Assembly (NCBI GenBank): GCA_950022695.1 | Contig: CATLLN010000001.1 | Span: 388,539-452,538, forward strand | Direction of reading: 5' to 3' | Length of the DNA: 64,000 nucleotides | Origin: an uncultured bacterium | Lineage (GTDB): Bacteria; Cyanobacteriota; Vampirovibrionia; Gastranaerophilales; Gastranaerophilaceae | In this document: positions 7,761-45,236 of the stretch, one piece after another | Layout of the letters: each line of letters starts with the position of its first letter | Numbering within the stretch: the stretch's first letter is position 1 | Notes under the pieces: generated by a model | Told to the model about the DNA's origin: nothing | Database searches by the model: none | What the model saw: only the letters and a program-made list of their open reading frames with translations | Program-made: the position numbers and the translations under genes

Positions 7761-7869
7761 TTTTTTTAGTAATTATTTTTTTTGCTCTGTTGACTAATGA
7801 TTTTTATCGTTCAGCTTTCTACAATAAAATGCCAACGAAATAATAAATTATACAATAATGAGGAATAAT

Positions 7870-9978
7870 ATGTTTAAAAAAGGACTTGTTGTCTTTTGGA
7901 TTTTGCTTTGCTTATTTTTTAATAACGTTACAGTTATAGCTCAGGAAACGAAATATCCAGATTATGCTTATGAATTTTTAGGAGATGATAAATGGGAAAA
8001 TTTTAACCGTAAATTATTTAATTTTAATCTCGGTTTAAATAAATATGCAATACGCCCCATACATATTTTGTGGTCATCAATTATGCCTGAATATGGTATG
8101 GATAGGATTAAAGGTATAACAAATAATATCGAATATCCGATAAGACTTGTCAGCAGTCTCTTACAAAGAGATTTTGAAACTTCTAAAAATGAAACAATAA
8201 GATTTTTCACAAATACTGTTATAGGTTTTGGCGGAATGTTTGATCCTGCAAAACATTTGTTTAATATTGAGCAGTCTAATGAAAATATGGAGCAAGCTTT
8301 AGCCGGTTGTAAAATGAAACCTGGTCGATATTTTGTATTGCCGGTACTATCTTTTGTGAATTTTCGTGGGCTTTTGGGAAAAGTACTTGATACTGCTTTA
8401 AATCCCGGTTCTTATATAGCTACTCCTGTTCTTGCAATTGTAAAAGCAGGGCTCACTGTGAATAAAACTTCTTACATGCAGCCATTGATAAAAATGGTTG
8501 AATCAACTTATGCAGATCCTTATGAAATTGCCAAGAAAATTTTTGGTATAGAATCTTTTATTAAGTGCGGTAATTTGGACAGGGTAGATGTTATTTCGCA
8601 ATTAAATGTTCCGGTAAAAGAAGAAAAAATAGCACAAATCCCGGAAAAAACTGCACCTGAAGTTAAAAAAGCGGTTACTGTAAAACCGGAAAAAGATGAT
8701 ACATTTGTGAAAGTTGAAGTCTCATCTGAGATAATTACACCGGACTTGTTATATGGCGGTACAAATTTTGATGAAACAGTAATGAAGAATTACAGTGCAG
8801 AGGACTTTAAGTTAGGCGCAGATATCTTACTAAAAGGATATAACCCGCAAAATCCTGTAGTAGACTCTATGCGTACGGCTCTTTTCGCACTTCCCGGGGT
8901 AGACGAATCTATTTGGAATGAATTATCTGTCTGGAACAGATCATTTAGTAAAAGAATTAGAACGTCTTCTGTAAATATAGCAGAAGGCAAAGATGATTAT
9001 AAATTTAGATATATCTTGCAAAAAGATAAAAAAGAATCACCTGTTGCAATAATTTATCCTTCAATCGGCGAAGGTATAATGTCATCTCATTCGGTTTTGC
9101 TTGCTAAAATCTTTTATGATGAAGGATATTCTGTTGTAATTCAGGGAAGCCACTTTCAATGGGAATTTGTAAAAAGCATGCCTGACGGTTATAAGCCGGG
9201 ATTACCAAGTAATGATGCCGAAAAGCTGAGGATGGTGACAACAAAAATTCTTGAAAAATTGTCAGAAAAACATAACTGTGAATTTAAAGATAAAGTATTT
9301 ATCGGAACATCATTTGGAGCATTAACGGCATTGTTTTTAGCTGATAAAGAATATAAAAATAATACTTTAGGTAATTCAAAATTTATTTCTATTTGTCCGC
9401 CGGTTGAACTTATTTATGCAATGAAGCAAATAGATAAGAATTCCGAAGAATGGAATAAATCTCCCGTAGACTTGAAGCAAAGAGTTGCAATGACAGCTGC
9501 TAAGGTTATGAAACTTTATCAGGCAAAAGACGATATCAATGTTGAAATCAATAACCTTCCGTTTTCTGAGGAAGAAGGAAAACTTATTACTGGGTTTATT
9601 ATGCATCAAAAACTTTCTGATTTGATTTTTACGATTGAAAAAGCTTCAAAATCTGCGCAATGTGATATTTATCACGTAATCAATAATATGAGTTATCAGG
9701 ATTATGCAAAGAAATATCTTTTAACGGATTCTGAAGATTCCTGTGATGATTTGACATATGAATCAAGTTTACACTCAATATCTGCATTTTTGGAAAATAA
9801 TGATAATTATAAGATTTATCATTCCTTAAATGATTACCTGACAAATACGAATCAATTGAAACGTCTCAAAGGATATTCAAAAGATAAAATTGTACTGCTT
9901 GATAATGGTGCACATTTAGGATTCTTATACCGAAAAGAATTTCTTGATGATTTGAAAATCACTATTTCTTTAAAATAA
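7870..9978 (+). CDS. MlaA (VacJ)-alpha/beta hydrolase fusion protein
   Basis: The start is the second ATG (7870), with AGGA 5 nt upstream, giving 702 residues; an in-frame ATG at 7858 overlaps that site. A signal peptide (FKKGLVVFWILLCLFFNNV) is followed by an MlaA domain to about residue 225, with DKWENFNRKLFNFNLGLNKY, FFTNTVIGFGGMFD and an NPGSY segment. MlaA is the outer-membrane component that removes misplaced phospholipids. A Lys/Pro/Glu/Val-rich linker (about 255-300) leads to a C-terminal alpha/beta hydrolase domain with the nucleophile elbow GTSFG (Ser about 481) and a C-terminal GAHLGF whose His (about 682) fits the catalytic histidine. Ordinary MlaA proteins are about 250 residues. 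The substrate is unknown; a lipase role is inference. Confidence 0.82.
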   Translation: MFKKGLVVFWILLCLFFNNVTVIAQETKYPDYAYEFLGDDKWENFNRKLFNFNLGLNKYAIRPIHILWSSIMPEYGMDRIKGITNNIEYPIRLVSSLLQRDFETSKNETIRFFTNTVIGFGGMFDPAKHLFNIEQSNENMEQALAGCKMKPGRYFVLPVLSFVNFRGLLGKVLDTALNPGSYIATPVLAIVKAGLTVNKTSYMQPLIKMVESTYADPYEIAKKIFGIESFIKCGNLDRVDVISQLNVPVKEEKIAQIPEKTAPEVKKAVTVKPEKDDTFVKVEVSSEIITPDLLYGGTNFDETVMKNYSAEDFKLGADILLKGYNPQNPVVDSMRTALFALPGVDESIWNELSVWNRSFSKRIRTSSVNIAEGKDDYKFRYILQKDKKESPVAIIYPSIGEGIMSSHSVLLAKIFYDEGYSVVIQGSHFQWEFVKSMPDGYKPGLPSNDAEKLRMVTTKILEKLSEKHNCEFKDKVFIGTSFGALTALFLADKEYKNNTLGNSKFISICPPVELIYAMKQIDKNSEEWNKSPVDLKQRVAMTAAKVMKLYQAKDDINVEINNLPFSEEEGKLITGFIMHQKLSDLIFTIEKASKSAQCDIYHVINNMSYQDYAKKYLLTDSEDSCDDLTYESSLHSISAFLENNDNYKIYHSLNDYLTNTNQLKRLKGYSKDKIVLLDNGAHLGFLYRKEFLDDLKITISLK

Positions 9979-12313: not shown

Positions 12314-13105
12314 ATGAAAAAAAGAAAGGATTACAAGAAGATGACAGAAAGATTCGGTTTTACGTCTAAAGCAGGTTTTACACTTGCTGAAGTTTTAATT
12401 ACTTTAGGTATTATTGGTGTAGTTGCAGCAATGACTATTCCTACATTGATTGCTAACACAAATGGTGCAAAATTCAGATCACAATTTAAGAAAACGTTAT
12501 CAACATTAAACCAGGCAGGTTTGATGGCACAAGCTCAATATGACTTTGATTATGCCGGTACATCAGCTGAGTGTGGAACAAATGCTGCGTCTGAACATCC
12601 TGAAGAAGTTATGACATTCTGTGCAATTTTAAATGGTACATTGACAGGTCAAACAATGCAAGGTACTGTTAATGATTTGAAACGTAATGCTAATGCTGAA
12701 GAAAAATCTTATGAAATTATTGCAGGCTATACCGGAGCTTTAGCTAGTAATACAACGCCTGCTGATTATATAGCTTATACATTAGCAGACGGTGCTATTG
12801 TGGCATTTAACCCTGCAGCTAAAGAATGTGAATTACCTATTGGTACTCAGATGACTGATACTCAGATTGCAGATGGTGGACCACTTGCAAATTGTTTAGG
12901 TTTTATTGATGTTAATGGTGTTACATTACCTAATAAAGAAGTATCTTGTACTAAAACAGAAAAAACATCACAAAAAGTTCAAGAACCTTGTGCGGTTAAG
13001 AATGATGCAAACCACATGACAGATGTATTCCCTATTGTATTCCATGACGCAACAGTAGAACCGGCATCAAACGCAGCTAAATATGTATTAACATCTGCTA
13101 AATAG
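12314..13105 (+). CDS. Prepilin-like protein with N-terminal methylation motif
   Basis: The 263-residue protein has a short basic leader followed by the prepilin peptidase site: cleavage between Gly21 and Phe22 (AG-FTLAEVLITLGIIGVVAAM), with Glu at +5 of the mature protein. The helix continues to about residue 50. The C-terminal domain contains several cysteines (SAECGT, MTFCAIL, KECELP, NCLGF, VSCTKT, EPCAVK), which probably form disulfides outside the cell. An alternative ATG at 12341 has AAAGGA in front and would give a shorter leader. PilD at 28030 is the likely processing enzyme. Whether it belongs to a type IV pilus or a type II secretion pseudopilus is not decided by sequence. Confidence 0.9.
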   Translation: MKKRKDYKKMTERFGFTSKAGFTLAEVLITLGIIGVVAAMTIPTLIANTNGAKFRSQFKKTLSTLNQAGLMAQAQYDFDYAGTSAECGTNAASEHPEEVMTFCAILNGTLTGQTMQGTVNDLKRNANAEEKSYEIIAGYTGALASNTTPADYIAYTLADGAIVAFNPAAKECELPIGTQMTDTQIADGGPLANCLGFIDVNGVTLPNKEVSCTKTEKTSQKVQEPCAVKNDANHMTDVFPIVFHDATVEPASNAAKYVLTSAK

Positions 13106-13707: not shown

Positions 13708-14453
13708 ATGAAAAACACTACTAAATTTACAAAGCGGGGGGGGGTAACCCATTAAAGCTTTTTTTACAGGGGTTCACGCTTGCAGAAGTATTAATAACTC
13801 TTGGCATAATTGGTGTTGTTGCAGCTATTACGATTCCGGGTTTAATAAATTCATATAAGGCACATCAACTTCGTTCTCAATTTTTAAAATCATATTCGAT
13901 AATTACACAAGTTGCACAACACATGAAAAATGACGAAATTGATTATGATAATTTACGAGCAATGTACGGTGACAGTTACTATTGGTATGGTACATATAAG
14001 GTTTTTAAGCAATATGTTAAATACAGTATTGACTGTGGAATGTCCCCGACAGAAAAAACGTACAAATACTGTTCTAGAAAGTCGACAGATACAAGTAAAG
14101 AATATAAAACATTGTTCGGAAATTATAAACTCTCCCTTGATAGTATAAGCAGCGGTGAGCTTATTTTACCTGATGGTACAAATCTTTTATTTAACAGGAA
14201 TGTTACAGTTGCGGTAGATTTAAACGGTTTTGCTAATGCGCCTAACAGAGCAGGGTATGACTTATTTTTCTTCCGCTACGTTGACGGAAATTTTTTACCT
14301 GAAGGATTTGATGGAACATTGTTCAGTACTAAAATGCGTAATTACGCTTGCAACACATCAGGGGATTTTAACGCAAATAACGGAATGTCTTGTGCCCAAA
14401 AAGCTGCTACACAAAATGATTATTTTAAGCAAATAGTAAAAAAATCCAAATAA
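13708..14453 (+). pseudogene. Prepilin-like gene, out of frame at a G9 tract
   Basis: The ATG at 13708 (AAGGGG upstream) opens a leader MKNTTKFTKRGG that hits TAA at 13753 because of nine G at 13736-13744. With seven or ten G the frame would read on through NPLKLFLQ-GFTLAEVLITLGIIGVVAAI, a complete prepilin site with Glu at +5, to the stop at 14453. The rest of the frame is intact and looks like a typical minor pilin. A strong AAGGAG upstream also serves a 6-codon mini-ORF (13691) that overlaps the start. It could be phase-variable, a fresh pseudogene, or a homopolymer sequencing error. Confidence 0.8.
13736..13744 (+). repeat. G9 homopolymer in the prepilin leader
   Basis: Nine consecutive G in an otherwise AT-rich region, within the coding leader of the prepilin-like gene. 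The tract length decides the reading frame: 7 or 10 G would be in frame; 8 or 9 are not. Confidence 0.9.
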
Positions 14454-44327: not shown

Positions 44328-45236
44328 CTATTTACAATCCCCATTTTTGATAGGTTTGCCAAAGAATATTCTGGCTCCTCCAAAACGTTGCTGAAGTGTC
44401 TTTTTAACACCGACTACAATATCGTTTACGTTGCAGACCACAAGCTGAACGGCATCAATTAGAACGCTTAATTTTGGTACAAGTACTGAAAAATCTGAGC
44501 TTGTTTTGTTGAAGTTGCCTGAAATTGATATAAAATCTTTGGATGAATTTGCAAAGTTATATGTTGTCATTTCAAGGTTTGCAGCACTGTTGCGTATTGT
44601 TTGACGGGTAATCTCGTCATTTGTTTTTTGAGATAAATCTTTCAGATTAGCAGTAGTTGTTTCAAGATTTAACATACTGTTTTTTAAGTGGGTAGTGGAA
44701 TCGAGGATATTTTCTCTGTTTTCTGTTAGAATATCTGTTACAAGATCAAATAACTCAGTTAAAGCATCTGTTGTTTTTGTAGCAGAACTTAACAGGCTTT
44801 CCCCTTTTTCAGATAAGTTATCCAAGTGGGCCTGGTTTATATCTGAAATCCCGCTGAATGTAAATCCTGATTCACCTTTAATCACATCACCTGTTCTGAT
44901 ATACTTTAGCATAGGTGCTCTGGGATATTGTATATCAACGTATTTTGTATCTTCATCGTAATTTTTTATACGAACGGTTATGTTTTTTGGAAGCTGTAAG
45001 CCTCTTTGATTTAAGGTAATATATAAATATGTTGTTTTAAAATCTTTTGAAATTTTTAGTTTTCGTGTTGTTCCAAGTTTATAACCCTTGTAGTAAACCC
45101 CCATTCTCGGCGGCATAGGGTCCATTTTGTTGAATTCTGCTTTGATATATGTGTGGTTAAAGTAGGTGACAACTACTGCACCTAAGAATATGAAAAGCAA
45201 AACTAATAATATAATTTTTCCTACTGTAAGATTCAT
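44328..45236 (-). CDS. MlaD-like MCE-domain protein
   Basis: The 302-residue protein has an N-terminal membrane anchor (ILLVLLFIFLGAVVVTYF, about 9-27) and an MCE domain (about 38-115) with GVYYKGYKLGTTRKLKIS. Residues 130-260 are a long helical or coiled-coil region with many Thr/Ser/Asn/Leu repeats. MCE proteins form hexameric rings that carry lipids between membranes. The C-terminal helices could form a bridge through the periplasm, as in longer MCE proteins. The MlaA-fusion gene at 7870 encodes the likely outer-membrane partner. mlaE and mlaF are not in the window. Confidence 0.9.
   Translation of the reverse strand: MNLTVGKIILLVLLFIFLGAVVVTYFNHTYIKAEFNKMDPMPPRMGVYYKGYKLGTTRKLKISKDFKTTYLYITLNQRGLQLPKNITVRIKNYDEDTKYVDIQYPRAPMLKYIRTGDVIKGESGFTFSGISDINQAHLDNLSEKGESLLSSATKTTDALTELFDLVTDILTENRENILDSTTHLKNSMLNLETTTANLKDLSQKTNDEITRQTIRNSAANLEMTTYNFANSSKDFISISGNFNKTSSDFSVLVPKLSVLIDAVQLVVCNVNDIVVGVKKTLQQRFGGARIFFGKPIKNGDCK

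Follow-up and report, generated by a model that had tools for sequence, protein, structure and literature searches.

A probable MlaZ-MlaY fusion: an MlaA-family domain joined to an MlaY-like hydrolase in the Gastranaerophilales

MlaA, as described in Escherichia coli and Klebsiella pneumoniae (structures 5nuo, 5nup and 8i8r), is a stand-alone protein of roughly 250 amino acids (aa), which hands lipid to MlaC and carries no hydrolase; the E. coli protein is a lipoprotein. MlaA homologues of the signal peptidase I type (SPaseI-type) also exist (PMC11131202). In Pseudomonas aeruginosa, the adjacent genes PA3238 and PA3239 encode the lipase MlaY and the MlaA-family protein MlaZ, respectively (PMC12569750; PMC11131202), and this pair has been proposed to extract misplaced phospholipid and to degrade it (PMC11977310, PMC12569750, PMC11131202). 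Rescue of a pldA mutant by MlaY and MlaZ in combination has been reported (PMC11977310). Previous work has also indicated that MlaABC is 'totally absent in diderm Terrabacteria' and has connected the absence of MlaA to that of Lol (Grasekamp et al., PMC10665443). Here we analysed a stretch of 64,000 nucleotides (the window) from an uncultured gut bacterium, a member of the Gastranaerophilaceae related to the cyanobacteria (GCA_950022695.1, contig CATLLN010000001.1, positions 388,539 to 452,538), which encodes an MlaA domain and an alpha/beta hydrolase domain in a single chain. We consider it probable that, by natural fusion, this chain unites an MlaZ-type lipid extractor of the MlaA family with an MlaY-type periplasmic lipase. 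The two components, and the notion that they act together, were known beforehand from the P. aeruginosa two-gene pair; the fusion, the reversed order, the presence in Gastranaerophilales and the lack of MlaC in every carrier are new. A full-text literature search found no fused MlaZ-MlaY form, the original MlaYZ paper, which might mention one, lying outside its coverage. The original prediction, made from the letters of the window, had stated that no described protein of this layout was known; this holds for the fused chain in the literature searched, but the parts form a known functional pair. Its premise, that inward passage of phospholipids is normally all that MlaA does, takes no account of the P. 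aeruginosa pathway through MlaZ and MlaY.

One chain with two predicted domains

The gene occupies 7858-9978 on the forward strand as one uninterrupted open reading frame (ORF). Met5 at 7870, where the original prediction began the protein, is an equally good start in the same frame, and many homologues start at this 'MFKK'. The chain is laid out as follows.

7858..9978, +: probable MlaZ-MlaY fusion gene, 706 aa, alternative start Met5 at 7870 (intact ORF; full-length orthologues)
7858..7944, +: predicted N-terminal signal peptide of the signal-peptidase-I type, without lipobox (hydrophobic N-terminus, by inspection)
7984..8583, +: MlaA (PF04333) domain, residues 43-242 (Pfam E 1.6e-40; Z 20.2 to MlaA 5nup)
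8605..8808, +: variable linker rich in Lys, Pro and Glu, residues 250-317 (low model confidence, weak conservation)
8809..9975, +: MlaY-like alpha/beta hydrolase domain, residues 318-706 (BLASTP and hhalign to MlaY; esterase fold, Z 19.2)
9310..9312, +: putative nucleophile Ser485 in the GTSFG elbow (aligns with MlaY Ser187; conserved in 68/68 orthologues)
9832..9834, +: putative acid Asp659, after strand 651-656 (aligns with MlaY Asp388; 67/68, one gap)
9913..9915, +: putative base His686 in GAHLGF, after strand 678-682 (aligns with MlaY His415; 67/68, one gap)

The Pfam match to PF04333 covers residues 43-229 and scores 139.3 bits against a cut-off of 25. The MlaA half has no E. coli-type lipoprotein signal, and a lipobox-like motif occurs in only two of 63 fusion orthologues, in both apparently by accident. 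For the C-terminal half, neither Pfam nor NCBIfam returned anything convincing, whilst a sequence search of the PDB with the fusion matched only MlaA chains convincingly. The mean majority frequency across the 68 orthologues is 0.75 in the MlaA domain and 0.71 in the hydrolase, as against 0.37 in the linker (residues 246-317). The single copy that departs from Asp659 and His686 has a gap there, and the triad is intact in all complete copies checked.

An AlphaFold model based on a 19-sequence alignment was poor (predicted local distance difference test, pLDDT, 61.6); an alignment of 56 orthologues cured this and gave two confident domains, with a mean pLDDT of 80.5 and a predicted template modelling score of 0.79. 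The hydrolase mostly exceeds a pLDDT of 85 and the linker lies at about 25-50, falling below 50 at residues 255-316. The ring-like helical fold of MlaA is recovered, as 200 residues of the model align with the solved MlaA chain 5nup_F (Z 20.2, root-mean-square deviation 2.9). The predicted hydrolase resembles esterases and lipases, namely 5lcn_D (Z 19.2) and 7d78, 9h0z and 6nkf (Z 17-18). The closest solved fold is thus the Pyrococcus furiosus esterase Pf2001 (5lcn, 5g5m; Z about 19), which differs in sharing 12% identity, in having no MlaA domain and in its unrelated biology. In the model, Ser485 sits between strand 478-484 and helix 486-501, and the order of Ser485, Asp659 and His686 along the predicted secondary structure is that expected for an alpha/beta hydrolase triad.

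The original prediction had described MlaA, a linker rich in Lys, Pro and Glu and a hydrolase in one chain, and the intact ORF, the PF04333 match and the orthologues bear this out. The GTSFG serine and the C-terminal GAHLGF histidine stand where it had put them, and the acid, which it had left unnamed, is Asp659. The whole-chain structure prediction that it had suggested as a check yields the two confident domains, with Ser, Asp and His placed by modelled secondary structure.

The hydrolase half as a homologue of MlaY

Direct comparison of the hydrolase domain with P. aeruginosa MlaY gave an E value of 5e-22 in two-sequence BLASTP, and profile comparison with hhalign gave a probability of 99.7% (E 2.1e-25, 318 columns). 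The published triad of MlaY is Ser187, His415 and Asp388 (PMC11977310); in the P. aeruginosa protein compared here, positions 187, 388 and 415 are exactly Ser, Asp and His, and it is therefore identified as MlaY. Pairwise alignment sets its S187, D388 and H415 against S485, D659 and H686 of the window. As judged by alignment, the hydrolase half is remotely homologous to MlaY and shares its triad; homology together with the conserved triad makes hydrolysis likely. Profile scans alone miss this link, since no model names the hydrolase, and MlaY itself has no naming model in Pfam or NCBIfam and only a sub-cut-off match to Abhydrolase_1. MlaY has been treated as a phospholipase (PMC11977310, PMC12569750, PMC11131202), and has also been called a PldA homologue and an integral outer membrane protein (PMC11977310); its sequence and our alignment fit an alpha/beta hydrolase, not a PldA-like outer membrane protein.

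The genes surrounding other homologues were informative. When plasmid records (7.3 Gb) were searched with the hydrolase by tblastn, four matches were obtained at E <=1 (three in P. aeruginosa, one in Fusobacterium), and each of the three loci inspected (two P. aeruginosa, one Fusobacterium) directly adjoins an MlaA-family gene; the P. aeruginosa neighbours are annotated 'alpha/beta fold hydrolase' then 'VacJ family lipoprotein'. MlaY as query added two Skermanella loci, both adjoining VacJ; there, a tamB-like gene follows the mlaY-mlaZ pair. A small tree groups the MlaA proteins encoded next to MlaY in Pseudomonas, Skermanella and Fusobacterium into one clade (support 100/98), with the following members.

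L144, 5108-5911: MlaY-adjacent MlaA protein
L145, 5040-5825: MlaY-adjacent MlaA protein
L167, 4236-5024: MlaY-adjacent MlaA protein
L168, 4227-5000: MlaY-adjacent MlaA protein

This clade suggests that the two genes travel together, mlaY-mlaZ moving between phyla. The hydrolase is thus coupled to an MlaA-family gene as a neighbour in these three genera and by fusion in the Gastranaerophilales carriers. In the cited papers, the way in which MlaZ passes lipid to its partner MlaY in Pseudomonas is put forward as a proposal, and a natural fusion would be direct evolutionary evidence for their functioning as one unit. The fusion resembles MlaZ-MlaY in combining an MlaA-family protein with an alpha/beta hydrolase of the same Ser-Asp-His triad, and MlaZ in lacking a lipobox. 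The P. aeruginosa proteins differ in being encoded by adjacent genes, hydrolase then MlaA, whereas the fusion is one polypeptide in which MlaA and linker precede the hydrolase; identity is about 23-27%, and the host of the fusion has no MlaC.

Distribution and genome context

Among 60 relatives searched, many genomes from the same genus encode orthologues of nearly full length, and so does a second family within the order. Across the class, 140/382 genomes were matched by a profile built on the hydrolase alone and 139/382 by the Pfam MlaA profile. Compared by eye, the MlaA list equals the hydrolase list minus one genome (G368), in which the hydrolase is only a fragment lying where a contig begins. 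Both domains share one frame in the carriers, apart from fragments at contig edges; the frames span about 600-830 aa, shorter ones being pieces split across contig ends. In a phylum-wide sample, the hydrolase was confined to the fusion-bearing families. Titles of public-collection records with the fusion often name Candidatus Gastranaerophilales or Melainabacteria; close copies also occur in public records (L080 and L065) whose titles, 'Fusobacterium sp. CAG:439' and 'Muribaculaceae bacterium', look mislabelled. Orthologues are 46-94% identical and stand in differing gene neighbourhoods, with no conserved neighbours beyond close relatives. The same fused frame in so many assemblies is neither chance nor a frame error, the latter being a ground on which the original prediction would have been refuted, and by sequence the fusion is real and old.

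The only MlaA domain in the source genome is the fused one, with no free MlaA. A free-standing MlaA in the Gastranaerophilales metagenome-assembled genome Zag_111 (L166; G007 contig C60, 160000-170000) was judged to be probable contamination, as the genes and composition of the contig look foreign; by eye, the contig is possibly Desulfovibrio-like. The statement of Grasekamp et al. (PMC10665443) on distribution needs correction: the MlaA domain is common in Gastranaerophilales and, in the genomes examined, always joined to the MlaY-like hydrolase. The fusion family contradicts the reported absence of MlaABC yet fits the link between MlaA and Lol, because it has no lipoprotein signal. No LolA match was found in the source genome, and an MlaA without lipobox may be one way for an MlaA-type protein to work in such envelopes.

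MlaC (PF05494) was not found in any fusion-bearing genome among the 382. It is present in other families of the class (f8 and f13) which have no PF04333 MlaA, that is, MlaC without its usual donor. PldA (PF02253) had no match in the fusion or in the source genome. LpxC is encoded in 368/382 genomes, which makes lipopolysaccharide (LPS) probable in the class; a link between fusion and LPS does not explain the patchy distribution, and was discarded as its cause. The source genome also holds MCE-domain proteins and two MlaE homologues. At 44328-45236 on the reverse strand, about 35 kb from the fusion, the window encodes a protein of 302 aa that begins with a membrane anchor and matches the MCE (MlaD) domain at a score under the Pfam cut-off (E 1e-4); this protein may be a divergent inner-membrane component of lipid transport.

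Proposed mechanism and alternative explanations

We propose the following mechanism. The protein would be exported by the Sec pathway and lose its signal peptide, and the MlaA domain would then reside in the outer membrane, within its inner leaflet. Phospholipids misplaced in the LPS leaflet would slip into the MlaA pore, below which the flexible linker would hold the hydrolase in the periplasm. The hydrolase would receive the emerging phospholipid, and Ser485-Asp659-His686 would cut its acyl ester. Degradation would thus stand in for the hand-over to MlaC, a protein absent from these genomes. The proposed task, the destruction of phospholipid in the outer leaflet, is that of PldA (OMPLA), which is an outer-membrane beta-barrel, unlike the fusion. 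The coupling of lipid extraction to degradation in the original prediction is probably right, given the homology to MlaY, the same triad and the MlaA-family partner, although catalysis is here a deduction from sequence. The wider proposal, that Gastranaerophilales keep outer-membrane asymmetry by one self-contained extract-and-destroy protein, without MlaC, PldA or a lipoprotein anchor and in place of the extract-and-recycle Mla route, stands in our view at roughly even chances. The fusion also offers one soluble-plus-membrane chain for purification and structure determination.

Several observations weigh against reading the protein as an MlaZ-MlaY fusion. The MlaA half is very divergent; by BLAST it resembles MlaZ no more than it does other members of the MlaA family, in the small tree it sits on a long branch of its own, and its grouping with MlaZ is neither rejected (p-AU 0.37) nor supported. 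The MlaZ-like function is thus deduced from the partner hydrolase, and the MlaA subfamily plays no part in that deduction. The hydrolase and MlaY are no more than about 23% identical. Moreover, many related genomes with LpxC have no fusion, which is thus not essential for LPS envelopes.

Among other explanations, the hydrolase could act on something other than bulk phospholipid, deacylating lysophospholipid or another lipid, or transferring an acyl group (for instance to lipid A or protein) from a donor that MlaA supplies. The fold suits thioesterases, feruloyl esterases and lipases to about the same degree, and the products of the MlaY reaction are not defined in the cited papers (PMC11977310, PMC12569750, PMC11131202); homology and the identical triad nevertheless point to MlaY, which these papers take to be a phospholipase, and we consider this alternative unlikely. 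It is more doubtful still that the fusion supplies the genome's own MCE/MlaE transporter in the inner membrane, retrograde transport being the main job and the hydrolase an accessory for trimming the cargo. The genome does encode MCE-domain proteins, including that at 44328-45236, and the two MlaE homologues, but the MlaC shuttle was found in no fusion-bearing genome of the class, the MCE and MlaE genes are not beside the fusion, and the neighbours of the fusion are not conserved. The chance that a frame error or a chimeric assembly joined two unrelated genes is negligible: nothing was found in its favour, and the orthologues, with the same intact frame in many independent assemblies at 46-94% identity and in differing neighbourhoods, rule it out. 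A fusion of MlaZ-type extractor and MlaY-type lipase remains the reading that we prefer.

Downstream of the fusion, the ORF at 12314-13105 (+) encodes a protein that, from its sequence, has a type IV prepilin-like N-terminus, GFTLAEVLITLGIIGVVAAMTIP, and a second ORF at 13923-14453 (+) resembles the C-terminal part of a type IV prepilin-like protein.
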